IMG/VR virus record: IMGVR_UViG_3300026097_000011
Location: 1 to 64,000 of that record
Length of the DNA: 64,000 nucleotides
DNA from: a virus
Direction: 5' to 3' (one strand)
Positions within the stretch are counted from its first letter, which is position 1, and each line of letters begins with the position of its first letter. Of the stretch, positions 13,411-58,714 are shown piece after piece. Position numbers and translations under genes: made by a program. The notes beneath the pieces were generated by a model. That model ran no database searches. It was not told the origin of the DNA and saw only the letters and a program-made list of their open reading frames with translations.

Positions 13411-13779
13411 ATGGGTTACATTAGATTAAAAAGATTAAATGAACATCATGATGATGATATGCCAGCTGAATTATTAAATATGACAATTGGTGAGATGTTA
13501 GACAAAGCTGAAGAGTTAGACACAAAGGGAGACGCAGAGTATGAGGTTATAGAGGATGCACTAAGAGCAATTGGGGATAAGATATTAGGAACCGGATACG
13601 AAACAGAAGTAGATTTTACTCCAGATGGAGTTGAGAATGCAGGAGATAACGAGGATGAAGATCATGATCCACTATCTCATCAAATAGAAACATATGATGA
13701 AATAGCTGGACAGCAAGACATGGGACAAGGCCAAGGTGCTCCAGATAATGGTATGAATATGGATAACTTCACATTTTAA
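13411..13779 (+). CDS. acidic tagged hypothetical protein
   Basis: 122 residues, very acidic. It begins MGYIRLKRLNE|HHDDDMPAE, where RLNE is a candidate prohead-protease site. A helical region (MLDKAEELDTKGDAEYEVIE) is followed by a disordered Gln/Gly/Asp-rich C-terminus. An ATAAATAAAATAAAA element lies about ten bases upstream. Its stop overlaps the next ATG (TAATG). It is the first of a run of five small genes with tag-like ends and is likely a virion-internal protein. Confidence 0.55.
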   Translation: MGYIRLKRLNEHHDDDMPAELLNMTIGEMLDKAEELDTKGDAEYEVIEDALRAIGDKILGTGYETEVDFTPDGVENAGDNEDEDHDPLSHQIETYDEIAGQQDMGQGQGAPDNGMNMDNFTF

Positions 13780-14066
13780 TGAGTGTTAAATCGTACATAT
13801 CGTTTTTAAAGGAAGATATAGGTGGTGCTATTACAATGAACAGAACACCCCCTAGTAAATTAAATGATCCTAAGCTTAATGTTCAACAACCTAGAACAAT
13901 TGACACAGGTAGAGGTGGATCAATTCCATTTCACTGGAATAATTCCCCAGGTACACAAGCAGGAGCTAGATATGGAGCAAATCCACGTGAAAAAAATCGT
14001 GTTATGACATATGAAGAATTCATGGAAGCTCAAAAAAAGAATTCACAGAAAGAAAATAACGAATAA
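13779..14066 (+). CDS. small protein with tag-like motifs at both ends
   Basis: 95 residues. The N-terminus MSVKSYISFLKE|DIGGA has the YxxFxxE pattern, and the C-terminus NRVMTYEEFMEAQKKN repeats it. The centre is rich in Pro, Asn, Gly and Arg and probably unstructured. It is co-transcribed with its neighbours (one-base overlap on the left and one base before the next ATG). If both ends were cut by the prohead protease, only the basic middle would remain. Confidence 0.55.
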   Translation: MSVKSYISFLKEDIGGAITMNRTPPSKLNDPKLNVQQPRTIDTGRGGSIPFHWNNSPGTQAGARYGANPREKNRVMTYEEFMEAQKKNSQKENNE

Positions 14067-14067
14067 T

Positions 14068-14361
14068 ATGGGACATATTGATAATTTTAAAAAATTTAGA
14101 AACAGGGAAGAGAAAGCTTTAACTGAACAGGGAGACTCTACTACTGTAATGAGCGTACCTGAAAAGTTTAAAGCAGATCAAGAAGCAATTAATCAAAAGA
14201 GAAATAACATTGCACAAAGAGAACAGGCAATTGCTAATGAAAAAGTTCAACTCAATAAGATGGTTAGCGAATTACAGGATAAAATATCGGCGGAAAATGC
14301 TGCTATTGCAAATGCGGCTAAAGCAACTGCACAGGCTCAGCCAACTCCACCAACAGTATAA
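14068..14361 (+). CDS. small coiled-coil protein
   Basis: 97 residues from the ATG at 14068; the open frame runs upstream into the previous gene but ATG 14068 directly follows its stop. It starts MGHIDNFKKFRNREEKALTE. Residues 40-80 are a long helix rich in Gln, Asn, Lys and Ala (NIAQREQAIANEKVQLNKMV), consistent with a coiled coil, and the end is Ala/Pro rich. The N-terminus fits the tag only loosely (ALTE|QGD). Confidence 0.5.
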   Translation: MGHIDNFKKFRNREEKALTEQGDSTTVMSVPEKFKADQEAINQKRNNIAQREQAIANEKVQLNKMVSELQDKISAENAAIANAAKATAQAQPTPPTV

Positions 14362-14813
14362 TGAGTAAAGATAAAAATGTAAAGTCATATAGCGATTTCA
14401 TTAATGAGACTGAACAAAAAGTAGTACATAATACTAATTTTACAGGAATGGTTCAAGGTGCAGTATCAAGCATTCACAGTCAAGTATTAGCCATTGCTAA
14501 AGCAATGGCGGATGAAAAAGAAGCTAGAAACCCTTATCGATATCAAGATGCTGATAAAACTGGAGGAGTTGAAGAAGTAGACATTACACGAGCTCTTAAT
14601 CTTATATTTCATAGTGATTGGAAAAAGCATTTAAAGGCTCATAATATCCAAGAATGGGCTAGATCTTGTATCGAAAGAGCAGGAAAACATGATGAGCGAG
14701 CAGATAAGAAGAATCAAAGAGCTCTTCGTACAAATGGAGGAGAACAGATTGACAACTATAAAGTTGACTTAGGGTCTCAAGGATTTAGTAGAGATCTTGG
14801 AGAAAATAAATAA
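14361..14813 (+). CDS. tagged hypothetical protein
   Basis: 150 residues. It starts MSKDKNVKSYSDFINE|TEQK, an almost perfect match to the KxYxxFIxE capsid-targeting pattern, so cleavage after residue 16 is predicted. The body is helical and basic (FHSDWKKHLKAHNIQEWARS, HDERADKKNQRALRTNGGEQ). It overlaps the upstream gene by one base and lies seven bases from the next. No family recognised; probably an internal head protein. Confidence 0.6.
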   Translation: MSKDKNVKSYSDFINETEQKVVHNTNFTGMVQGAVSSIHSQVLAIAKAMADEKEARNPYRYQDADKTGGVEEVDITRALNLIFHSDWKKHLKAHNIQEWARSCIERAGKHDERADKKNQRALRTNGGEQIDNYKVDLGSQGFSRDLGENK

Positions 14814-15573: not shown

Positions 15574-16026
15574 ATGAAAAAGTATATACGAACATATTCA
15601 TCCTTTATAAATGAGGCTCGTACTAAGCAATGGCTAGATGACGTGACAGATAAGAAAGGTAACATAAGAAAGGTTAGAATAGATGATACTATTAAAATTA
15701 GAGTCCTTGAGTTTATATATGAAGCAGGAAAAGAAGGAAGACGATACACTGAAATCGTTAAATTTATAGTTGAAAACATAAAGGGAATGGTATATGATTG
15801 GAGAATTCACAGGGGATATTGGGCAACTAACTTAACTGGTGCAATTGGATTTTGGGGAGGATCCGATACTGGACTACTCACTCAATATTGTGAAAAAAAT
15901 GAAAATGGAAAGTGGGTATTAGCAAATGATAAGCTAATAAACTACTTTATGAAAGTTGACTTTAGAGGAGTATTAGATGATGCAGAAAGAGATGCACTCG
16001 AAGAATTACTTTCAATTGATAAATAA
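15574..16026 (+). CDS. tagged protein with a possible winged-helix domain
   Basis: 150 residues. It opens with MKKYIRTYSSFINE|ARTK, one of the clearest capsid-targeting-like tags (compare T4 internal proteins). After the tag, residues 35-75 (LEFIYEAGKEGRRYTEIVKF) read like a winged helix-turn-helix, then a Trp/Gly-rich loop (GFWGGSDTGLLTQYC) and an acidic helical end. An ATAAATAAATAAATA run stands before the ATG. It could be a DNA-binding protein carried in the head. Confidence 0.6.
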   Translation: MKKYIRTYSSFINEARTKQWLDDVTDKKGNIRKVRIDDTIKIRVLEFIYEAGKEGRRYTEIVKFIVENIKGMVYDWRIHRGYWATNLTGAIGFWGGSDTGLLTQYCEKNENGKWVLANDKLINYFMKVDFRGVLDDAERDALEELLSIDK

Positions 16027-44824: not shown

Positions 44825-45570
44825 TTAAATGGGCTTGTTTTTAATAGCTTCGCTAAGTTTATATTAAAATCGGTATTAATATCCGATACGATTTCATTGA
44901 AGCTTTCTCGAGTTGGTACTCTTGCTACATTGAATGTTCTGTTAATTGATGCGTAATAATCTCTGAATTTAAATCCATTTCCGATTACGTTCTTAGATAG
45001 CTCAATCCAAACTGACGGTACTTTATATGCATCAGCAATCACTAACCCATGTAAGCTACTTGACATTATCGTTTCACATTCAAGAATTTGATCAACAAAA
45101 TTCTCTACACTTTTATCCTTCACGTTTATAACTTTAATATTTGGATTGTGTCTACAGTAATTAATAAATTCTGTGTCTTTATCTACATAGTGAGGAACTA
45201 CTCCGATTTTATATTTCTTCTCAATATTCGGCGAGTATACTTTAGGTAATAATAAACCTGGATCTCCGTATATTTCTGGACATGATATCTTATTCTTTAA
45301 AAGCAGATCTCTTGTTAGTGGTCCTCGAACAGCAAGGATCTTTGGATTCTTATGTCTGAGGTTTAGGTTTCCAGAAATTGAACCTGATCCCCACACTATC
45401 GTATTAGAATCAGCCCTTCCAATAATTGATCCAGTTGATAAGTATTTAGCATGTTTTGAATTTGCATCAATCCATTCATAGTCAACTTTAAAAAGATTGT
45501 CTAATAAATATGGAGTAATTAAATCTCCAACGTTTATGATTTTATTAAACCAATATGTTTTATATTTCAT
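44821..45570 (-). CDS. polysaccharide pyruvyl transferase family protein (copy 1)
   Basis: 249 residues from the ATG at 45570 (MKYKTYWFNKIINVGDLITP); the longer frame is upstream coding sequence. NVGDLITPYLL at the start, VWGSGSISGNLN, AVRGPLTRDLLLKNKISCPE, YGDPGLLLPK, and ETIMSSSLHGLVIADAYKVP are hallmarks of the family. These enzymes add pyruvate ketals, or in some cases act as glycosyltransferases. It shares layout and several blocks with 46114-46929, so the two are paralogues. It overlaps the methyltransferase gene by 11 bases. Confidence 0.8.
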   Translation of the reverse strand: MKYKTYWFNKIINVGDLITPYLLDNLFKVDYEWIDANSKHAKYLSTGSIIGRADSNTIVWGSGSISGNLNLRHKNPKILAVRGPLTRDLLLKNKISCPEIYGDPGLLLPKVYSPNIEKKYKIGVVPHYVDKDTEFINYCRHNPNIKVINVKDKSVENFVDQILECETIMSSSLHGLVIADAYKVPSVWIELSKNVIGNGFKFRDYYASINRTFNVARVPTRESFNEIVSDINTDFNINLAKLLKTSPFK

Positions 45571-46111
45571 TCTTACTAAATTTGTATATATGTTGATGAA
45601 TTTTGTATTCGTTTCCATTCGGCGTAATATACGTTTTCTTCCATGGAATACACTTCTCAAGTTTCATATCTGCATCACTAAATAATTTGATGAATTCATG
45701 ATTTGTGTATGAATTCATCCATCCATGTAGATCTCTATTTTCTGGATATTCATTAAGTGTGGAGTACGATACCACTATGTTAGCACATCTATTTGAGATG
45801 TATTTAATTTTGGCTGGAAGATTCGTGATGTATTCCAATACTCCACTAAATATCGCATAATCATAATCCCCAAAGTCAACCATCTTAGGGGCATTTAAAT
45901 CGTATTGAATATACTCAATATCTCCCTTGTTTACAAAATCGGTTATTGTACATTTATTAGAATCAGGCAAATAATTTGAAACAGGATTAATTCCAGCCCC
46001 AAATTCAATGACTGTTTTATTTGGCTCAATTAGAGATGCTAGCAACTCAGTACGTGGATTCCAAGTTTCATTATAACTCTCTATATTTGACCATCTATCC
46101 ATGTCTGACAT
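45560..46111 (-). CDS. SAM-dependent methyltransferase
   Basis: About 183 residues from the ATG at 46111 (MSDMDRWSNIESYNETWNPR), two bases after the upstream stop; an ATG at 46135 lies inside the upstream gene. The SAM-binding loop is VIEFGAGINPVSNYLP, then CTITDFVNKGD and YDLNAPK, and YAIFSGVLEYI (motif IV-V region). It probably methylates a sugar, given its place between two pyruvyl-transferase-like genes. Confidence 0.75.
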   Translation of the reverse strand: MSDMDRWSNIESYNETWNPRTELLASLIEPNKTVIEFGAGINPVSNYLPDSNKCTITDFVNKGDIEYIQYDLNAPKMVDFGDYDYAIFSGVLEYITNLPAKIKYISNRCANIVVSYSTLNEYPENRDLHGWMNSYTNHEFIKLFSDADMKLEKCIPWKKTYITPNGNEYKIHQHIYKFSKNEI

Positions 46112-46113
46112 AA

Positions 46114-46929
46114 TTATTGTTTTTTGAGTGGACATGATCTAACTAATAAATCTAGATCTATTTGAGACATGTCGTGGATGAATGTTGAATCAATCATAGT
46201 TGATATCGTCAGATCAGGACTATATTTAATTGGGTTGTATTTTGGTATAGTTGATTCCATAATAAGTGGATCAAATGTTCTATGTACCTCAGGATCAAGT
46301 GATGCTAGAAAATCATAAAACTTAATATCATCGCCATTTATTCGATCTGAATATTTTAACCATCTAGTTGGAACTCCGTACGCAGCAGATGTTATGATTC
46401 CATGTAACGATGTAGATACAGTGCGTTCACATTCAAGAATATCATCAACTACTTTTTCAATATTGTTAGTTCTAAGGTCAATGATCTTTACTCCTTCCTT
46501 TCCGTCATATATCTTCTTCATCTCAAGGTATTCACTAACATGAGGAATTATTCCAAGAATATATTTCTTAGCTTTATTAGGAAAATAATATCTTGGTAAT
46601 AATAAACCAGGATCTCCGTATACCCTTGGACATTCAAATCCCATGCGTAATAATTGATCTCGTGAGAATGGTCCACGAACTGCATGATATTCTTTTGCTC
46701 TTGTAAAATCAGATTGATCAATGTTTCTTATACCGGATCCCCATACATCAGTATTTGGAGATGATAGTCTCATTATACTCCCAACTGATATTAATATATC
46801 TTTGTCCTTTTTGATGTTACATGGATTAGGATGTTTGATTCCAAACATTTTATCAAATAACCATGGTGGAATTTCATCCCCAAAATTATGTTCACGTCCT
46901 CTCCACCACCATAAATTAAAATTCTTCAT
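46114..46929 (-). CDS. polysaccharide pyruvyl transferase family protein (copy 2)
   Basis: 271 residues. It starts MKNFNLWWWRGREHNFGDEI. The FGDEIPPWLFD, VWGSGIRNID, AVRGPFSRDQLLRMGFECPR, YGDPGLLLPRYY and ERTVSTSLHGIITSAAYGVP blocks match those of copy 1 in order and spacing. The Trp-rich first residues are also common in this family. One of the two may act as a transferase on sialic-acid-containing glycan. The start overlaps the GT8-like gene stop by one base. Confidence 0.8.
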   Translation of the reverse strand: MKNFNLWWWRGREHNFGDEIPPWLFDKMFGIKHPNPCNIKKDKDILISVGSIMRLSSPNTDVWGSGIRNIDQSDFTRAKEYHAVRGPFSRDQLLRMGFECPRVYGDPGLLLPRYYFPNKAKKYILGIIPHVSEYLEMKKIYDGKEGVKIIDLRTNNIEKVVDDILECERTVSTSLHGIITSAAYGVPTRWLKYSDRINGDDIKFYDFLASLDPEVHRTFDPLIMESTIPKYNPIKYSPDLTISTMIDSTFIHDMSQIDLDLLVRSCPLKKQ

Positions 46930-48626
46930 TACTTAATTGTTTTTTTGAAATTGATCCACTTGTTTAAATAGTAAGTAGTAACAGGGCCGGTTAATAGTTT
47001 CTCTGCCCATGGTTTACCTTTCCCATAATGGATAATAATTGGTTCTACACTTGGAATAGACCTTTGTCTATAAAAGTGATAATCGTTATATCGTTTGTCT
47101 AAATACATTAGTGGAATTTCATCGAATATTGACAGTACTAATGAGAATAGTGAATCGTCTCCCTTTCTAGGGACTCCATTTTTCATACTGTGTGAAAACA
47201 CTCTATGTACTTTATCTGAGAACTTAGTTTCATGACAATATTTATTGTTGAATACTAGTACTCCAGTATTTATGGATTGTGCATTAAGCCCTTTGTTTGT
47301 AATTTTAAATAGCTTCTTAAGCTGGGGTAATTGTTTGATGTTAACTAGAAACTTTTTAACGGTTGCTCCTCTATCAACACCTGCGATTCCAGTAACGTCT
47401 TGAAGCCATGTCATATTTAAAGGTAGATTGCAATATGTATCTGAATCTACTCCAATTGAATGTGAATATCCAAGATTGTATAAAACAGCTGGACAATCGA
47501 ATATCCAGAAGCACTCAGATGGATAAGGATATCCTGTCGGAATTTTATACTTCTCAGACAGATCCATTTCTATTAATTTTATATTATGCTTATGCAAGGT
47601 ATCTAAACTTTCTTGAGTAGCATCTTTACAAAAGATATAAAAATCTAAATTATCTTCTTTTGAATTTGCTCGATATGATTCAAAGCAAGTAATGGCATAT
47701 TTTATATATGCGTTATTTAATGTTGTAAATACTGCTACTCTATCGGATAATTTTGTATTTCTGATATTGTCCTTTCCAAATTCAGCAACTAAATCAATTC
47801 TCTTTGCTCCTTTTGGTAAAACTGGAGCTTTTATCCTAGATGTGCGAATCTTAGATGGAGTTTTCATCTTATTTAAGCGAGTCATATGTTGATTTAAGTA
47901 TATTTGAACTCTCGAATACTTAGCATCAGACAATATTGATATAGGAATGTGTATTGCTGAAATTGCCTTTGAATATCTTACAAAATTGCTGTATCTATTA
48001 TTTGGAAAGGCAGATGACTCAACTAAAACATTGCCACTTAACTTATTCACATTAAATCTAGTTGAAACATGATCAGTTAGATACTTATCAGTGCCATTTA
48101 GCACATTTGCAATTAAATCGCCATATAAGTCATCAAATATTTCATCACTTATGTTACATTCAGGAACATACATTAGTGTTGCAGTTAAACCCGTTCCTGG
48201 ATTTGGAAACGATTCAGATGTCGATGATAATGAGACTGCGTCGTCAGTAATTATATCAGATAACTGAGATAATACAATAACTTTATTCGACATATAGATA
48301 TTTCCTCTTGATTTGATCTTAAATGCATATATTTTAAGATAGTCGTAAATGTCTTCGTAATATTTGCGCCTTTCAACCTTTGCTTTTAATTCAGATATCT
48401 CAGAATCTGGAATTACTGCGATTTGAATATCATCATATATCAAATTAAGCATATTTGTATTATGTGCACTTAGTGGATTCGATTCTAATGTTAAAATAAC
48501 AATTGTACCATCAAACCAGTCGTTTTTCTCAATGAACGTTGCCAATGCTACTCGAACATAGTGAAATATCTTATTGTTGCATTCGCTTATTAAGCAAATA
48601 TTATCTATGTCAGTTAAGTTATTCAT
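46929..48626 (-). CDS. glycosyltransferase with two GT8-like domains
   Basis: 565 residues. The C-terminal half (from about residue 290) is a GT8-type domain: RVAVFTTLNNAYIKYAITCF, then SIGVDSDTYCNLPL (DxD), TGIAGVDRG, NTGVLVFNNKYC and IIHYGKGKPW. The N-terminal half starts NICLISECNNKIFHYVRVAL and repeats the fold (YLKIYAFKI, NIYMSNKVIVLSQL) without a DxD, so it appears inactive. GT8 enzymes are retaining transferases using UDP-sugars. Confidence 0.75.
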   Translation of the reverse strand: MNNLTDIDNICLISECNNKIFHYVRVALATFIEKNDWFDGTIVILTLESNPLSAHNTNMLNLIYDDIQIAVIPDSEISELKAKVERRKYYEDIYDYLKIYAFKIKSRGNIYMSNKVIVLSQLSDIITDDAVSLSSTSESFPNPGTGLTATLMYVPECNISDEIFDDLYGDLIANVLNGTDKYLTDHVSTRFNVNKLSGNVLVESSAFPNNRYSNFVRYSKAISAIHIPISILSDAKYSRVQIYLNQHMTRLNKMKTPSKIRTSRIKAPVLPKGAKRIDLVAEFGKDNIRNTKLSDRVAVFTTLNNAYIKYAITCFESYRANSKEDNLDFYIFCKDATQESLDTLHKHNIKLIEMDLSEKYKIPTGYPYPSECFWIFDCPAVLYNLGYSHSIGVDSDTYCNLPLNMTWLQDVTGIAGVDRGATVKKFLVNIKQLPQLKKLFKITNKGLNAQSINTGVLVFNNKYCHETKFSDKVHRVFSHSMKNGVPRKGDDSLFSLVLSIFDEIPLMYLDKRYNDYHFYRQRSIPSVEPIIIHYGKGKPWAEKLLTGPVTTYYLNKWINFKKTIK

Positions 48627-49248
48627 CTAATTTGTCTAAATCTTGTTGAGTATCAACATCAATTATATTATTTTGAATCTCCATGAACATCGTATCTCGA
48701 TGATAGAGATTATCGTTTAATTTATTTAATACAGAAGGTCTAAATATAGATATGAAATGACTGATCTCAAAACATTTAGGATAATCTTGTCTTCTATATA
48801 AGTCATGATAGAATAATTGTGATCCTTTATTATTGTCTTCCTCTTTCATCATTAGAAATGGTGAAGTATCTAATTCCTTTTTACACAGCATTGAATGAGC
48901 GTTGTTGTCCCATACAAACTTACGTGCCTTCATAACATCTTCCCATGTTCTTTCAGGATACGTTAGATATAGCATCACAACGTCTGCATATTCTCCAATA
49001 TTTGTTTCTTTAACGAAATATTGCATTACCTCTTTAATTGAAGTTTCATCAGTTGATATTTCATTAGGTCTAATTACAACATTAAAGTTATATGATTCAG
49101 CCATTGTAGCTATTTCCATATCATCAGTTATTACATATACTAAATCTGCCATATCAATTGGAATAATATCCGCAGTATATTTAAATAGTTTTCTATTTTT
49201 AAATGGGAGACCCTTAGATCCCTTTCTAGCCGGTATTGCTATTATCAT
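48619..49248 (-). CDS. neuA: CMP-sialic acid synthetase-like cytidylyltransferase (NeuA)
   Basis: 209 residues. [20 protein letters not shown] is the N-terminal signature of CMP-sugar synthetases. LVYVITDDMEIATMAESYNF and VIRPNEISTDETSIKEVMQY follow, then MLYLTYPERTWEDVMKAR and the C-terminal IIDVDTQQDLDKL. The enzyme activates a nonulosonic acid with CTP for transfer. It is short (bacterial NeuA is about 220 or more), as in phage and minimal versions. The gene overlaps both neighbours by a few bases. Confidence 0.85.
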   Translation of the reverse strand: MIIAIPARKGSKGLPFKNRKLFKYTADIIPIDMADLVYVITDDMEIATMAESYNFNVVIRPNEISTDETSIKEVMQYFVKETNIGEYADVVMLYLTYPERTWEDVMKARKFVWDNNAHSMLCKKELDTSPFLMMKEEDNNKGSQLFYHDLYRRQDYPKCFEISHFISIFRPSVLNKLNDNLYHRDTMFMEIQNNIIDVDTQQDLDKLDE

Positions 49249-49859
49249 AGTTCCTTAAATTTTTCTATACTAATGTGCGGTACAACGTTAATTTTACTTT
49301 CCTTACTTAGATTATATAATTCTACTCCTCTTTGATCTAGTGCATTTTTCAAATGCTCATATCCCCATAATAAATCTGGAAGATATCTCATTCTAGCTAG
49401 TGAATGAGCACCGTCCTTGGGTGAATAGAAATGTCCATCTGTAAAATCTACACCTATTATTCCTATCTTTTTTGCTCCTAGTTTATATGCTACATTAATC
49501 GCAGTATATGGAGAGTTTAAGAAGTGATCCACCTTCGAGGGATCATCTAAATGAGAAGATCCTTTTGCTCCTAAATCAAAATGAATTATTCTAGGGTGCC
49601 TCCATCCACCGACACATGTAAGTAAGTATTTATAGTCAGTTTCATTTATCCACTTTTTTCTCTTATCATTAAATCTATTTGGATGATCAGTTACTAAATT
49701 GTAATTAGGTTTAAATAGAGAAGGTACATCATTCACTCCAATAGTTATAAAATCTTTATAATGTGGTTCAAATTCTTTAAGTGACATCCCACATCCACAT
49801 ACTACTATTTTTTCACCCTCGTGAATATTATGAAAGTCTATAAATTTCTTTGGCAACAT
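49245..49859 (-). CDS. GT42/MAF-like Rossmann protein
   Basis: 204 residues. It opens with a Rossmann strand [20 protein letters not shown], then [40 protein letters not shown] and a [17 protein letters not shown] loop, in an order close to that of the gene 41557-42171. Similar proteins are MAF/sialyltransferase-like proteins that handle nonulosonic acid sugars. First gene of the glycan island, starting divergently from the J-domain gene. Confidence 0.5.
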
Positions 49860-49927
49860 ATGTCGATTATTTTAAAACCATTGATATAATATTATATACA
49901 ATATTAAATAACTATAGTTTAACTATT

Positions 49928-50887
49928 TTGAAAGATTATTATAAAATATTAGGAGTAGATGAAAAATCAACCTCGGATGATATAAAAAAGGCGTATAGAA
50001 AGCTATCAAAACAATATCATCCAGATGTTAATCTAACACCCGGAGCAGATGAAAAATTTAAGGAAGTAGCAAGTGCATATGAAACCTTAGGTGATGTCAA
50101 AAAAAGAGAACTATACGATATATCTAGAAAGCCAAAAAGTACATTTGGAAGAAGGGGAACTTCATTTGAAGATTGGGCTAATGAATTTGGAACAGGTGAT
50201 TCTGGATTTGGAAGAGGATCATCGCGTGGTGGATTTGGAAGAGCACATGCTCGTAAAAATCCTACTACGACACATCTTCATGTAAATAAAACAATCGAAG
50301 TAAATTTAAAGGACTTAATACTAGGAACACAAGTAGAGGTTAAATATGATAGATACGTAATTGATGGAAATTTTCTTAAGAATAAGGAAGATAAAATTTT
50401 AAATATTCACTTAGATCTTAAAAAAAAGTATTTACCTATAACTAAAGTTGGGGATAATTATATAATCAATATTAAACTTGAAAAATTAGGAAGCGAAGAT
50501 ATACATCGAAGAACAAATATATGGGGAGATCTTGAAAACATAATATTATATGGTGATTTTATACTTGAAGTTAAAGTTAAAATACCAGAAGATGTCAATA
50601 TAGAAGATAATAATATAATTCAATTTATTGATATTCCTCTATATAAAACCCTATTTCCAGAAGAAAAGATTAGAATATCTACTATTTTAGATAAATCATA
50701 TGACGCTGAAATATCTACACCTAAAAAATTAAATGATCTTAAATTTAACATCAAAGATCAAGGAATTAAAGGTAAAGCTGGAACAATAGGTAATTATACA
50801 ATTAGATTTAACATTATTCCACCGGATCTATCCAAGATCAATAAATCCACATTAAATACCATAAAAGAATCCTTTACACAAGAGTAG
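49928..50887 (+). CDS. J-domain co-chaperone (DnaJ/CbpA-like, no zinc finger)
   Basis: 319 residues when started at TTG 49928, which gives [20 protein letters not shown], the standard J-domain opening; the longer frame would overlap the divergent gene. The HPD motif is in [12 protein letters not shown] Gly/Phe-rich linker ([20 protein letters not shown]) and two substrate-binding beta domains follow ([20 protein letters not shown]). The CxxCxGxG zinc finger is absent. It lies 60 bases before the protease-scaffold and capsid genes and may recruit host DnaK for capsid folding. Confidence 0.85.
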
Positions 50888-50950: not shown

Positions 50951-52918
50951 ATGAACTTATCAAGCAATAGTCAATTAGACGATTTTGTACTTATAGTAGA
51001 AAACGTTGGAAAGGACTTAACAATGAAAAAGGCTTCTAATGATTATATATTAGAGGGTGTTTGTGCGGTATTTGGCGCAAAGAACAATAATAACCGAGTT
51101 TACGAGAAAGATGAGTACCTTCCGCATTTAAGTTATTTACAAGATAAGATCGATAAGGGTCAGCTGGTTGGAGATTTAGATCACCCACCACATTTTGATG
51201 TAACTCTTAAAAGTGCATCTCACATTATCGAGTCGTTAGATTATGACGGTGGAGATAAAGTAAACATTAAACTAAGAATTTTAAATAATACTCCAAACGG
51301 AAAGATCGCAAGAGCTTTATTAGACGGAGGAGTTAATCTATCAATTTCATCTAGAGCAGCAGGACAAGTTCTTGAATCTAGTAAAGTTAAACTTCACAGA
51401 ATCTTTACTTACGATTTAGTAGGAGAGCCTGGTTTTACTGAAGCTATTTTAAAGAAAACCCTTAATGAATCTCTTAAAAATGATTTCCAAATGATTACAG
51501 AAAGCTATGATCATTTGAAAGAAGAATCATTTGTTGAAAAAGAGCATTTAGTTAATATTTCAGAAAATTTAAACTTTAGTGATAATATTAAAGTCTATAA
51601 AATAAATAAACCTATAGAATCTATGTTTGAGAGCTCTATATCAAAAGAAGAAAAAAATAATAACACAATGGCCGACACTAAAGATTTTGTAACTAAGGAG
51701 AGTATGAATAGATACTCTGAAGTAGTTAAGGAAAATTTCGAAAGCTTAAGAGCTGAATTAAAAAATCAAAAAGCTATAATGGAATCTGCTGGAAACGGTG
51801 AAGGACATGATCTAAATAGCTTATTTAGTTTTGTTAGTTATATTGCAGAACACTTAGAAGGAGTTATTAATTACTCTGATTATCTTTCTGAAATGGTTAA
51901 CAAAAATGTTGCATACACAGAGCATGTTGCAGAAACTACTAACCATGCAATTGAATATTCTAGTTATATTGGAGAGAAATTAAATACTTCAATTGGACAT
52001 AACGATTATATTGCAGAAAAATTAAATCAAACGATTAATTACGCTGAATATATCAAGGAAAGCTTAAACGGTTCAATTAATTATCAAAATTATTTAGCAG
52101 AGGAATTAGATAGAGGTATTCAATATACTGAGTATGTAGCAGAAGGAGCTAATAATGGGATTCAATTCTCAGAATATCTTTCTAAATCTATTAACGAAAA
52201 CAGAGAATATGCTCAATATATAGCAGAAAAAACTACTCAAGGGATTGGTTATACTGAATACGTTGCAGAACAAATGAATGCAGGAGTTTCAGCACCAGGT
52301 AAAAGAAGCCTGTTAGATAACGTAGAACGATTAACTGAATCAAAATCTATTGATAACTTAGTAGATAGTGTAGATGCAGTTATCGCAGAAGTTAGTTCTA
52401 ACTCAGCTAAAGCTGTACTAGAAAACAGACATCCTTTCTTAAAGGTTCTTTCAGAATCTCACAGAGAAAACTTCTACAAATTAGAATCTAATCAGAAACA
52501 AGCAATTGTTGAAGCATTAGGAGCTACTATTTGGTTCAATGAAGCTGATGTTTTAGGAATCATGGATTCAGTTGTTAATGAATCAACAAAAGACTTACAC
52601 ATTCTTGAGAAATTTATGCCAGATTCAGTTAAACCAGTTTGGAATAAAATGAATGAGAGTGAAAAATCAAGAATTTTCGCAAAATCTCAATTATATAACC
52701 TAAAGACACCTTATCAAGTTAAATCGTTTTTCGATGAACAAGACTTTAGAAGAATAAATGAAAGAGTTGCTATTGAGGCACAAAATATTAAAGAAATGCA
52801 AAAGCTTAACGAAAGCCAAAGTACAGAAGGTATGATATCCGTTGAAAGGGTAGTTGAGTCAAGCAGAGGTTATTCCTCAAATTACCTAGCTAATCTGCAA
52901 AGAAGAGCTAACAACTAA
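50951..52918 (+). CDS. prohead protease (gp21-like) fused to repeat scaffold
   Basis: 655 residues. It starts MNLSSNSQLDDFVLIVE|NVGK, a tag-like start with an IVE site. Residues about 30-165 are a gp21/S77-type prohead protease: GVCAVFGAKNNNNRVYEKDE, GDLDHPPHFDVTLKSASHII (His region), DGGVNLSISSRAAGQV (Ser) and a FTYDLVGEPGF strand. Residues about 240-655 look like the scaffold: a coil, then ten 14-residue repeats of the type IxYxxYVAExxNxx (51866-52285) and a helical C-terminus. In T4 the two are separate proteins, gp21 and gp22. The protease should cut the scaffold, the capsid protein and tagged internal proteins. Confidence 0.85.
   Translation: MNLSSNSQLDDFVLIVENVGKDLTMKKASNDYILEGVCAVFGAKNNNNRVYEKDEYLPHLSYLQDKIDKGQLVGDLDHPPHFDVTLKSASHIIESLDYDGGDKVNIKLRILNNTPNGKIARALLDGGVNLSISSRAAGQVLESSKVKLHRIFTYDLVGEPGFTEAILKKTLNESLKNDFQMITESYDHLKEESFVEKEHLVNISENLNFSDNIKVYKINKPIESMFESSISKEEKNNNTMADTKDFVTKESMNRYSEVVKENFESLRAELKNQKAIMESAGNGEGHDLNSLFSFVSYIAEHLEGVINYSDYLSEMVNKNVAYTEHVAETTNHAIEYSSYIGEKLNTSIGHNDYIAEKLNQTINYAEYIKESLNGSINYQNYLAEELDRGIQYTEYVAEGANNGIQFSEYLSKSINENREYAQYIAEKTTQGIGYTEYVAEQMNAGVSAPGKRSLLDNVERLTESKSIDNLVDSVDAVIAEVSSNSAKAVLENRHPFLKVLSESHRENFYKLESNQKQAIVEALGATIWFNEADVLGIMDSVVNESTKDLHILEKFMPDSVKPVWNKMNESEKSRIFAKSQLYNLKTPYQVKSFFDEQDFRRINERVAIEAQNIKEMQKLNESQSTEGMISVERVVESSRGYSSNYLANLQRRANN
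51668..52918 (+). CDS. possible nested scaffold protein (in-frame internal start)
   Basis: Residue 240 of the fusion is an ATG in a purine/A-rich context (AAAAAAATAATAACACAATG) that looks like the gene starts elsewhere here. Starting there gives a 416-residue free scaffold beginning MADTKDFVTKESMNRYSEVV. This would parallel the nested Nu3 scaffold within the lambda C protease gene. The internal start is predicted from sequence context only. Confidence 0.45.
   Translation: MADTKDFVTKESMNRYSEVVKENFESLRAELKNQKAIMESAGNGEGHDLNSLFSFVSYIAEHLEGVINYSDYLSEMVNKNVAYTEHVAETTNHAIEYSSYIGEKLNTSIGHNDYIAEKLNQTINYAEYIKESLNGSINYQNYLAEELDRGIQYTEYVAEGANNGIQFSEYLSKSINENREYAQYIAEKTTQGIGYTEYVAEQMNAGVSAPGKRSLLDNVERLTESKSIDNLVDSVDAVIAEVSSNSAKAVLENRHPFLKVLSESHRENFYKLESNQKQAIVEALGATIWFNEADVLGIMDSVVNESTKDLHILEKFMPDSVKPVWNKMNESEKSRIFAKSQLYNLKTPYQVKSFFDEQDFRRINERVAIEAQNIKEMQKLNESQSTEGMISVERVVESSRGYSSNYLANLQRRANN
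51866..52285 (+). repeat. ten 42-base (14-residue) tandem repeats in the scaffold region
   Basis: Ten units, each 42 bases, coding IxYxxY(V/I/L)AExxNxx, for example INYAEYIKESLNGS, IQYTEYVAEGANNG and IGYTEYVAEQMNAG. The DNA has diverged between units while the protein period is exact. Eight of ten carry a hydrophobic-(A/G/S/K)-E triplet that matches the gp21-type cleavage rule approximately. Confidence 0.8.
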
Positions 52919-52936: not shown

Positions 52937-54592
52937 ATGGCTAAGACTAAAATTTTCAGACGTTCAAACGATCAATCGTTGAACAACACGTGGAAACCAA
53001 TTTTGGAATCTCACGGAGCTGATATGGAATCTACACCATGGCTAGCGGAATACGCTCACAACCACGCAATATTTGATAATAGTGCACCGTTATTTGAGCA
53101 AGCTGGACCAGGACAATTCCTTCAAACTCCAGGAGCTTTACCAGGAATGGGACAAGCAATCGCACCAACTCCAGGGCAAACGCCTTTCACAGCTGGTGGA
53201 GCAAAAAACTCTTACGGAGATTCAGGATCTGGGGATAAATTCCCTTCATTACTTCCTGTAGCAATTCAAGTAGCAGCAAAAACTATCGGTTTCGACCTAG
53301 TTCCAGTTGTTCCTATGGATTCTCCAGTAGGTTTCTTACCTTACCTTGATTACCTTTACACAGGTGGTAGAACCGAAGATACAGCTTTCGAGCCGTACAT
53401 GGTTAAACTTCAAGGAATTACTGCAGCTTCTTTAGTTGGAGGAACTTTAACACCAGGACAATTACTAGTTACTTCAGGTCCTTCTGTTAGAACTTATGAA
53501 TTCATTGGATTCTCAAGAGTAGACGGTCACTTGATCGTAAAAGTTAAAACTGACTCAGACGCAATTTCGGTTGCTGGTGATTTAGAAGGAGACACGATTA
53601 ATACAATCGGTACTTCAATTACTGTACCACCTACAATCGCTACTGGAGCAGTACAATTAGTATCTGCATTAGAGAACCACATCTCAGGATTTACTTCGGT
53701 AAGTGATGATGATTATGCATCAACTGCATTCTCTGGTCCTTACTTTACTGAGAACAATGGAGAAATCCCTGGTTCAATGAAAAGAGAAGAAGGAGAGCAA
53801 TCAAGATTCAGACAAATGGGTCTAAGAATGTTCACAAAATTCATCGAAGCTGAAACTGATCAAGTTGCGATCTCTGCATCTGTAGAGCAAATCCAAGATT
53901 TGAACAGAGTTTGGAACTACGACGTAATCTCTATGTTAGAGAACGTTGCAGTTAATGATTTAGCTCAGTCTATTAACAAAAGACTTGTTGATAGAGTATT
54001 CCAAATGGCAGATGCTCACAACGTTGAGGTTAATGCTGTGGAAGGAGCTGGAATCACATCTCTAGACTTGTTAGCAGGTACTGGTGGATTTGAAAACGTT
54101 TCTACTCTTCAAAGAAGATTAGTTACTAAAATTCTTGAATTGTCTAACTTAATTTACCACAGAGGTAGATTCGGTGCAGGTACATTCATGGTAACTAACG
54201 GTAGAGTTGCATCTGCATTAGCTGATGTTGCTGGTTACTCAATTGCTCAAGTTCCTACGGATATGAGTGGAGTTGCTGGAAACCTTTACCCAGCTGGAAA
54301 AGTATACGGAGTACAAGTATACGTTGATCCTAACTTATCGTTCGGAGATACTAGAATTGTAATCGGTAGAAAAGGAGCTGATGAAGAGCCAGGAGTTAAA
54401 TTCATGCCTTACATCATGGCAGAGTCTTTACAGACTATTGCTGAAGGAACATTCTCTCCAAAGATCGGAATGAAATCTCGTTACGCGATCACTGAAGCAG
54501 GATGGCACCCAGAAACACAATATATCAACATGGAGGTTAGTGGAGATATGGCAGTGTTAACTGGAGGAGTTGCACCTTCAAACACTCTTTAA
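52937..54592 (+). CDS. major capsid protein, gp23-like
   Basis: 551 residues; T4 gp23 is 521. The start resembles gp23: LNNTWKPILESHG (T4 has a NKWKPLLEGEG-type start) and an IFDN segment. LFE|QAGPG at residue 54 is a likely prohead-protease site, giving a mature protein of about 497 residues. Later blocks FPSLLPVAIQVAAKTIGFDL, VVPMDSPVGFLPYLDYLYT, EQSRFRQMGLRMFTKFIEAE and FMPYIMAESLQTIAEGTFSP with KSRYAI follow the gp23 order of the HK97 fold. Codon use is richer in C-ending codons than in neighbours, as for a strongly expressed gene. A terminator follows. Confidence 0.92.
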   Translation: MAKTKIFRRSNDQSLNNTWKPILESHGADMESTPWLAEYAHNHAIFDNSAPLFEQAGPGQFLQTPGALPGMGQAIAPTPGQTPFTAGGAKNSYGDSGSGDKFPSLLPVAIQVAAKTIGFDLVPVVPMDSPVGFLPYLDYLYTGGRTEDTAFEPYMVKLQGITAASLVGGTLTPGQLLVTSGPSVRTYEFIGFSRVDGHLIVKVKTDSDAISVAGDLEGDTINTIGTSITVPPTIATGAVQLVSALENHISGFTSVSDDDYASTAFSGPYFTENNGEIPGSMKREEGEQSRFRQMGLRMFTKFIEAETDQVAISASVEQIQDLNRVWNYDVISMLENVAVNDLAQSINKRLVDRVFQMADAHNVEVNAVEGAGITSLDLLAGTGGFENVSTLQRRLVTKILELSNLIYHRGRFGAGTFMVTNGRVASALADVAGYSIAQVPTDMSGVAGNLYPAGKVYGVQVYVDPNLSFGDTRIVIGRKGADEEPGVKFMPYIMAESLQTIAEGTFSPKIGMKSRYAITEAGWHPETQYINMEVSGDMAVLTGGVAPSNTL

Positions 54593-57346: not shown

Positions 57347-58714
57347 TTATCTAATATACTCTTTCTTTAGAACTTTTTTAAGATCATTTAAATCATCAAG
57401 GTACATATCAGCAGGCTTTGTCTTCTTCATAGTTGTTAAATCTTTCTTTTTCTCAGATTCCTGAAGTAATAATTCTTCATATTTTTCTTTAGTCAAGGTA
57501 TGAATTGCCATAGATAATAAGTATGAATACGATCCATCTACTTCGTCAAAATCAGCAGTTTGCAGCCATAATACAATTTGTTTCTTTGGAACATTATTGA
57601 TTTTTAGTTTTCCATCTATAATAGCTTTAATAAATGCTGCTTTATTTGAAAGTATTAATAGCTCTCTTTCTAACTTATCAATGATGAATTCTTTTCGTTT
57701 AGTATAAAACTTCATTCTAAACGCTACGAAGTATTTTACAATATCAGATGCAGATTCAAAAATCTTTAATTTACCATGTTCATCAAGAACAGTTAAATTC
57801 TCAGTTTGTTTTTCCTCCATCTTTAAGAATCTAGTCAGTCTGTCCCCAGTCCCTAATCCACTTAACTGGGATCTGCTCATTTTAAGAGTGTAGTTAATAT
57901 CTGATTTACAGTTATTATCATAGCTCGCTAGTCTCTTTTCATCTTCTAGCTTATTCAAATAGTTATCAAACTTTTCATAAGTAACAGATGGTGGAAGTTC
58001 AGTGATCTCAATTGTTGTTGTATTCTTAACATCATATCTGCCTTTAAACAACCATGAATTCTTGTTATTCGGATTTGGAACAACTTCGCCTGTAAATCCA
58101 TTTACCCATGGTGTAGGCTCTTTAAACTTCTTTCCGTTTAATTCACTAAGACAACAGTCAATTAATTCAATTGGATTCCTATTTAGGATGTTAGTAGCAA
58201 ACCCTACAGCTATTCCTGATGATCCGTTTAGTAAAACAGTAGGAATTATTGGAAGAAAGTATTCAGGTTCTATTTGGGACCCCTCTTCATATCTAGGTGA
58301 TAACAATTCAAAGTCTTTATAGATTAATCTAAAATTTTCATGAAGTTTAGTAGATACATATCTAGGTGCACCTGCTTCTGGAGATCTTAAAGAACCGAAT
58401 TGTCCTATCTCTTGAAGAAGTGGCATTGAATTCTTAAACTTCTGTGCCATTCCAATAATAGCTGAATTTAGAGATGAATCACCGTGGTGGTAATGTGCAT
58501 CTGCTGCAATTCGTCCAGTTAACTGAAAAACTTTATATGCTTTTTCAGATCCATTCTTCCATACTTTATTGGCAATGAAAACAACTTTACGTTGAGTTGG
58601 CTTTAGTCCATCAATAACAGATGGAATTGCTCTATTTTCAATTACGTAAGTTGCATACTCTCGATAATCATTATCTAAGTATTCAGTTATTGTTGATTGT
58701 GTGTTATTGTTCAT
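57347..58714 (-). CDS. type II DNA topoisomerase, medium subunit (gp52-like, DNA cleavage)
   Basis: 455 residues; T4 gp52 is 442. The catalytic Tyr is Y119 in PEAGAPRYVSTKLHENF. Upstream there is AIPSVIDGLKPTQRKVVFIA and AHYHHGDSSLNSAIIGMAQK, both in the winged-helix cleavage domain. The tower follows with YEEGSQIEPEYFLPIIPTVL and NGSSGIAVGFATNI. It acts with the ATPase subunit at 59908-61776 to relax DNA and support replication. It overlaps the upstream small gene by four bases. Confidence 0.92.
   Translation of the reverse strand: MNNNTQSTITEYLDNDYREYATYVIENRAIPSVIDGLKPTQRKVVFIANKVWKNGSEKAYKVFQLTGRIAADAHYHHGDSSLNSAIIGMAQKFKNSMPLLQEIGQFGSLRSPEAGAPRYVSTKLHENFRLIYKDFELLSPRYEEGSQIEPEYFLPIIPTVLLNGSSGIAVGFATNILNRNPIELIDCCLSELNGKKFKEPTPWVNGFTGEVVPNPNNKNSWLFKGRYDVKNTTTIEITELPPSVTYEKFDNYLNKLEDEKRLASYDNNCKSDINYTLKMSRSQLSGLGTGDRLTRFLKMEEKQTENLTVLDEHGKLKIFESASDIVKYFVAFRMKFYTKRKEFIIDKLERELLILSNKAAFIKAIIDGKLKINNVPKKQIVLWLQTADFDEVDGSYSYLLSMAIHTLTKEKYEELLLQESEKKKDLTTMKKTKPADMYLDDLNDLKKVLKKEYIR

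Follow-up and report, generated by a model that had tools for sequence, protein, structure and literature searches.

Phage lambda (C/Nu3) and the herpesviruses (UL26/UL26.5) make an in-frame protease-scaffold precursor together with a separate scaffold that begins at an internal start, and we know of no 14-residue targeting repeats described in either. In the T4 prohead, about 580 copies of gp22 are present against about 55 copies of gp21 (PMC9958956). The N-terminal tag of T4 IPIII combines two functions: residues 4 and 7 (Y and F) are needed for targeting and residues 8 and 10 (I and E) for processing, and when Asp replaces the Glu at 10, targeting is retained while processing is blocked (PMC9026906). 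The way in which proteins come to lie within the core of the T4 prohead is still called "mysterious", and the structure of that core is described as unresolved (PMC9958956).

The window analysed here is a stretch of 64,000 nucleotides taken from a virus record of 138,587 bases, and it holds a gene in which a T4-type protease is followed in the same frame by a scaffold candidate containing a tandem targeting-type motif (Table 1). A search of open-access papers found no published account, for huge phages, of such a fusion, of its repeats or of the tags described below. Our main reading, to which we assign a probability of roughly 0.6, is that the gene encodes a self-processing prohead core of the T4 type, in which the scaffold would consist of the targeting motif in tandem and cargo proteins would dock by means of a single copy of it. 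Tag and scaffold would then be the same helix, which would give a concrete answer to the question of how the core is loaded. Comparisons of sequences support the fusion, the internal start, the pattern of the units, the enrichment of tags and the conserved candidate sites that are described below.

Table 1. Features of the fused gene and related reading frames, in window coordinates.
Feature	Position	Strand	Basis or remark
Protease-scaffold fusion gene	50951..52918	+	single open frame, 655 aa
gp21-like prohead protease domain (predicted), aa 13-173	50987..51469	+	sequence families, T4 gp21 fold
[IV]-x-E site IVE, aa 15-17	50993..51001	+	E17 in 63/64 homologues
LNE before S, aa 171-174, candidate self-cleavage site at protease/linker border	51461..51472	+	E173 in 65/65
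A-rich stretch, -18 to -9 of internal start	51650..51659	+	base composition across homologues
Nested scaffold reading frame (predicted) from internal ATG (Met240), 416 aa	51668..52918	+	Met in 65/65 non-redundant homologues
Eleven 14-residue units, aa 293-446	51827..52288	+	consensus x-Y-S-E-Y-[LIV]-A-E-x-L-[ND]-K-x-I
Unit starts	51827, 51869, 51911, 51953, 51995, 52037, 52079, 52121, 52163, 52205, 52247	+	exact 14-residue spacing
LTE before S, aa 461-464, candidate cleavage site just past repeats	52331..52342	+	E463 in 64/65
C-terminal helical scaffold domain (predicted), aa 465-655	52343..52915	+	pLDDT about 75-83 over aa 490-610
gp23-like major capsid protein	52937..54592	+	PF07068 5.8e-35; directly downstream of fusion gene
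Capsid propeptide candidate site, LFE before Q	53090-53098	+	alignment of 54 capsid proteins
ORF with N-terminal targeting-type motif, MSVKSYISFLKE before D	13779..14066	+	motif search
ORF with N-terminal targeting-type motif, MSKDKNVKSYSDFINE before T	14361..14813	+	motif search
ORF with N-terminal targeting-type motif, MKKYIRTYSSFINE before A	15574..16026	+	motif search

Judged by sequence and by predicted structure, the N-terminal part of the frame is a T4 gp21-like (S77/S80) prohead protease. It matches PF03420 (2.4e-10, 40.7 bits against a cut-off of 27) and PF20034 (35.8 bits against 23.4), both above the curated cut-offs, as well as phrog_207 (2.6e-31), and hhalign gives 97% against T4 gp21. 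The AlphaFold model finds T4 gp21 (PDB ID: 5jbl) as its best fold match with an E-value of 1.4e-9, and herpesvirus proteases as weak matches only (0.04 or worse). His78 (51182-51184) and Ser133 (51347-51349) are invariant and align with His85 and Ser140 of T4 gp21, which we take to be the T4 catalytic residues. Protease fold and catalytic residues are thus shared with T4, whereas the lambda protease belongs to another family than this gp21/S77-type enzyme and the herpesvirus UL26 protease has just a distant fold in common with it. The fusion frame runs uninterrupted through about 90 related loci and is therefore no assembly artefact; a first-pass annotation had proposed that a gp21-like protease is fused in frame to a scaffold-type region, and the family and fold matches, together with the conserved open frame, bear this out.

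The region behind the protease is a helical scaffold candidate. It sits between the protease and the major capsid gene, as gp22 does in T4, so that the order of protease, scaffold and capsid gene is the same, and the gene just upstream of the fusion in a 735 kb relative encodes a gp20-like portal, giving the local gene order of T4 there. A DnaJ gene (49850-50887) takes this upstream place in the window and in relatives close to it. Sequence similarity to gp22 was not detected: the window protein has no phrog_237 match at an E-value of 1, where T4 gp22 itself matches at 1.6e-92, hhalign against gp22 gives a probability of at most 2%, and a sequence search of the PDB found no solved relative. 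We therefore call the region a scaffold on the grounds of where it lies, of its helicity and of its nested start. Beside the head genes, on the minus strand, lies a cluster (45560-49859) that includes genes for a glycosyltransferase, a cytidylyltransferase and a polysaccharide pyruvyl transferase, which suggests modification of surface sugars.

The nested frame would begin at Met240, the sole methionine column conserved in at least 90% of the alignment, within a linker of variable length and composition. Of the ten bases from -18 to -9, on average 6.89 are A at this codon compared to 3.67 at 709 other in-frame methionine codons (p 7e-35, an overstated value because the homologues are not independent of one another), and the corresponding means are 7.21 at capsid-gene starts and 6.46 at protease starts. 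No Shine-Dalgarno-like motif was found in any of the three sets of starts (internal, capsid and protease), and starts lacking one are normal in Bacteroidetes (PMC6847099). The ATG at 51668, which the first-pass annotation had put forward as a separate scaffold start, is very probably a true one, its use in cells being judged from conservation and context. In its in-frame fusion and predicted internal scaffold start the locus is of the lambda C/Nu3 type and differs from T4, where protease and scaffold do not share one frame. Since T4 uses gp22 in excess over gp21, a separate scaffold start makes quantitative sense, and it would explain how scaffold can be supplied in excess despite the fusion. 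It is highly improbable that Met240 is no start and that protease and scaffold are always made 1:1 and separated solely by proteolysis at E173: the invariance of E173 would agree with such an arrangement, but not the start-like context and singular conservation of Met240, and a 1:1 ratio is far from the roughly 10:1 of T4 (PMC9958956).

The repeat block had been described in the first-pass annotation as ten exact 14-residue repeats at 51866-52285 with the literal pattern IxYxxYVAExxNxx. The period stands, but the units number eleven and are degenerate, with a mean pairwise identity of 34% for protein and 54% for DNA, and the literal pattern (I.Y..YVAE..N..) has to be dropped, as it occurs only twice in the block; a YVAE/YIAE-type site in most units was rightly noted, [ILV]xE being present in ten of the eleven. 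Tandem Repeats Finder reported nothing in the repeat region, and the block holds no exact DNA repeats. A unit profile built solely from the units of distant huge phages nevertheless identifies eight consecutive in-phase units in the window protein, compared to never more than one in 2000 shuffles, so the repeat is not due to chance. Among 65 non-redundant homologues the unit spacing is 14 nearly everywhere, with occasional 21-residue steps that correspond to one extra heptad, and the consensus over 581 and 194 units has an aromatic residue at position 2 (100%) and at position 5 (98-100%, His counted), followed by [ILV] at position 6, Ala in most units at position 7, and Glu at position 8 (82-94%). 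The same profile also matches near residues 58-66 of the protease, which we treated as chance, and a Pfam PSCyt2 match to the repeats lies under the cut-off and was considered spurious. Nor does the number of units serve as a ruler of genome size, as the clade of the window mostly has 11, and consecutive units number about 12 in the 634 kb phage, about 11 in the 636 kb phage and about 13 in the 735 kb phage.

The four functional positions of the T4 capsid targeting sequence recur in the scaffold unit, Y-x-x-Y-[ILV]-x-E, at the same spacing, although the units are internal in the protein and the T4 sequence is N-terminal on cargo. Alternatively, the repeats could be a mere coiled-coil rod or spacer of the core; they would then resemble the T4 tag through a chance convergence on the form of an amphipathic helix, and Glu8 would be no more than a surface charge. 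Structure prediction, proposed with the first-pass annotation as a check on this region, agrees with helicity, two AlphaFold runs giving long helices, but at low confidence (pLDDT 30-45). The hydrophobicity of the units peaks strongly at 3.5 residues per turn, as in an amphipathic helix (amplitude 1.4 versus 0.72 and 0.14), and both the rare seven-residue insertions that leave 21-residue gaps and the 462 kb phage, which has Glu at position 8 in only half its units and tolerates N, V or S, would suit a rod. However, Tyr5 and Glu8 are among the most conserved positions despite facing the polar side of the helix, and Glu is rarely exchanged for Asp at position 8 (662 Glu, 10 Asp), unlike at position 4 (378 Glu, 125 Asp; p 2e-38, a value overstated because the units are not independent of one another). 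Together with the independent enrichment of the four-residue pattern at N termini in the same genomes, this makes a plain rod or spacer rather unlikely in our view.

The strict preference for Glu at position 8 is what would be expected of a P1 residue, and three further near-invariant Glu columns with a hydrophobic P3 lie outside the units, namely E17, E173 and E463. The site at E17 is comparable in place to the LIE-9 site of T4 gp21 (PMC9026906). At E173 the pattern is [VLI][NS]E before S, with a hydrophobic P3 in 63 and Ser at P1' in 61 of the 65 homologues, and at E463 it is L[ND]E before S, with Leu at P3 in 57 and Ser or Gly at P1' in 56. A similar site closes the N-terminal extension of the capsid protein, where [LIVM][FN]E is kept across the 54 proteins, the 462 kb phage excepted, for which the alignment is ambiguous. 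We rejected the WLAE of the capsid protein as a processing site since a whole subclade reads WLVD there, whereas [LIV][FN]E is kept. The [LI]xE signature of these candidate sites is again that of processing in T4.

Cutting of the units themselves is less certain. They could be primarily protease substrates, the scaffold being chopped into 14-residue peptides that diffuse out, an idea that is compatible with our main reading and that, taken as the primary role of the units, we hold to be possible but not probable. The [ILV]xE in nearly all units and the Glu-specific position 8 are in keeping with it, as is the degradation of T4 gp22 to small peptides by gp21 (PMC9958956), but the units usually have N or K at P1', the conserved sites outside them (E173 and E463) look better, the aromatic residues at 2 and 5 are conserved and would not be needed by a bare [LI]xE site, and Glu is not kept in every unit. 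Of the first-pass proposal that the scaffold is chopped at repeat length, the part supported is the presence of cleavage-type [ILV]xE motifs in most units, with a Glu-specific position 8; the P1' residues and the 462 kb phage make the cutting into 14-mers itself less certain. The N-terminal tags discussed below favour N at P2 and A, S or G at P1', and the units A at P2 and N or K at P1', so that P1' is A, G or S in 16% of the units compared to 49% of the tags. Going by these preferences, the tags, the capsid site, E173 and E463 would be good substrates, and the repeat sites would be cleavable, possibly more slowly; cutting within every repeat is plausible, with less certainty than at E173 and E463.

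In T4, IPII and IPIII (ipII, ipIII) both start MKTYQEFIAE and carry the N-terminal Y-x-x-F-I-x-E tag. We searched for [YF]..[YFW][ILVM].E within the first 20 residues of ORFs of at least 100 aa, taking the first ATG as the gene start, and found it enriched in all eight repeat-bearing genomes examined. The record of the window has 5 such ORFs compared to 0.6 expected, the 735 kb phage 53 compared to 6.5 (p 4e-37), 400 kb of the 636 kb phage 21 compared to 3.7, 400 kb of the 462 kb phage 20 compared to 3.4, and four other relatives 8, 8, 13 and 7 where 0.8-1.4 are expected. Control motifs (reversed, or with D, K or Q in place of E) occur near expectation, with the exception of D in the 462 kb phage (5 versus 1.7, p 0.02). 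No such enrichment was found in 121Q and Lak, two large phages without the repeats, and T4 and P-SSM7 have few ORFs with the motif. Many more proteins carry the tag motif here than in T4, about 7 to 58 per genome. A match in the topoisomerase of the window (57347-58714) was treated as chance. The first-pass annotation had missed the match to the T4 targeting sequence, the dozens of tagged proteins and the conserved sites flanking the repeat block.

Typical starts are MIKTFDEFINE before S and MDKYNNFINE before A in the 735 kb phage and MKYIKEYEEFILE before A in the 462 kb phage; MKKYIRTYSSFINEA is a further example, and a phage related to that of the window (G001) has MEPVKSYSEFVNE before G in an ORF similar to the one at 14361. 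With ORFs of at least 50 aa included, the 735 kb phage has 58, about 9 of which are expected by chance, and over both length cut-offs the number per repeat-bearing genome runs from 5 to 58. The 58 fall into 41 families, so the set is not one expanded paralogue. Some have a recognisable enzyme domain right after the motif, and most have no recognised domain. For the largest phages known, most of whose genes are unannotated, the search thus predicts which proteins may be internal to the head and possibly injected, and the 735 kb genome alone has as many as 58 such candidates. In two relatives, G001 and G002, the motif directly precedes the fold of a NUDIX hydrolase (L162 10051-10542; L164 3515-3985), and these enzymes are candidates for being carried in the head. 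Several adjacent ORFs of the 462 kb phage (L244 13382-17720) have near-identical MKYI.EYEEFLLE starts and different bodies, as if the tag had spread as a module. In T4 itself, a 54-aa ORF (L174 18966-19130) has the targeting-type start MKTFKEFIKEDMV.

That some of the carriers are enzymes, such as the NUDIX hydrolases and a radical SAM protein, could mean that the N-terminal motif is an address for another destination, for instance a replication compartment or the membrane, and has nothing to do with the head. We consider this improbable, as the residues and their spacing match the experimentally defined T4 tag, the tags share an [ILV]-N-E signature with the conserved propeptide site of the capsid protein, and the tag co-occurs with the repeat scaffold in 8 of 8 genomes compared to none of the 2 large phages that lack the repeat.

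Our main reading of a tandem-motif scaffold with docked cargo leads to the following scheme, in which the self-association, the docking of cargo by way of the common motif and every cleavage event are inferred. The first start would give a small amount of protease-scaffold fusion and Met240 the bulk of the scaffold alone, and a few fusion molecules would carry the protease into a core built mainly of the nested product. The eleven helical units would form a rod, and rods would self-associate into the prohead core, with units packing through the helix face that bears Y2, [ILV]6, L10 and I14; the single N-terminal copy on a cargo protein would pack against, or replace, one scaffold unit. Once the shell is complete, the protease would release itself at E173, trim the capsid protein at [LIV][FN]E, strip the N-terminal tags, freeing the cargo at [ILV]-x-E, and dismantle the scaffold by cutting after E463 and, probably, after a number of the Glu residues in the repeats, and the fragments would leave before DNA is packaged.

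About 80 IMG/VR loci hold the fused gene at 42-91% identity, and 15 loci like that of the 735 kb phage have it in a remoter form. It is also present in huge-phage genomes of 462, 634, 636 and 735 kb and in Lak (541 kb), and to our knowledge none of the largest known phages has been cultured. A study of huge phages placed the 634-735 kb genomes and Lak in the Mahaphage clade, with Bacteroidetes hosts (PMC7162821). The clade of the window resembles the moraphages, a group that infects Flavobacteriia and has genes for DnaJ/DnaK (PMC12619734), and is perhaps also like the bS21 phages of lakes (PMC9723584). Lak shares the fused gene, a homologous protease, the aligned methionine and E173 site and an alignable C-terminal region, but an acidic linker takes the place of the repeats, which are absent, and its N termini show no enrichment of the motif. 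Escherichia phage 121Q has a T4-like order in which the gp22 start lies in frame, 690 nt after the gp21 start, but there the two genes are split by stops, the scaffold is of family phrog_10922, and neither repeats nor tag enrichment are seen. More generally, it may be that huge Bacteroidota phages build their scaffold as a polymer of the targeting motif, a docking lattice for dozens of unrelated proteins that attach by a cleavable N-terminal helix, and that the T4 tag is the single-copy form of a scaffold-assembly unit; we put the odds of this at even. The scaffolds of these phages differ from the T4 core in consisting of 11-13 copies of the tag motif and having no detectable similarity to gp22, and T4, with a tag but without a repeat-built scaffold, is a counterpoint to the model.

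Other occurrences of the units were seen in the 735 kb phage. In a second repeat-bearing protein, of 207 aa (L148 4760-5383; LR756501 619760-620383), three 14-residue units of the scaffold type come after a Gly/Ser stretch that is collagen-like, and a 76-aa ORF (L153 1346-1576) that starts MSAYDEYLREEMNKTRAYSEYVASY has two such units at its extreme N terminus and is possibly a minimal scaffold-like or adaptor protein. Scaffolds of the 735 kb type (L093, residues 388-429 of the folded segment) contain an extra small beta-strand domain between the repeats and the C-terminal domain.
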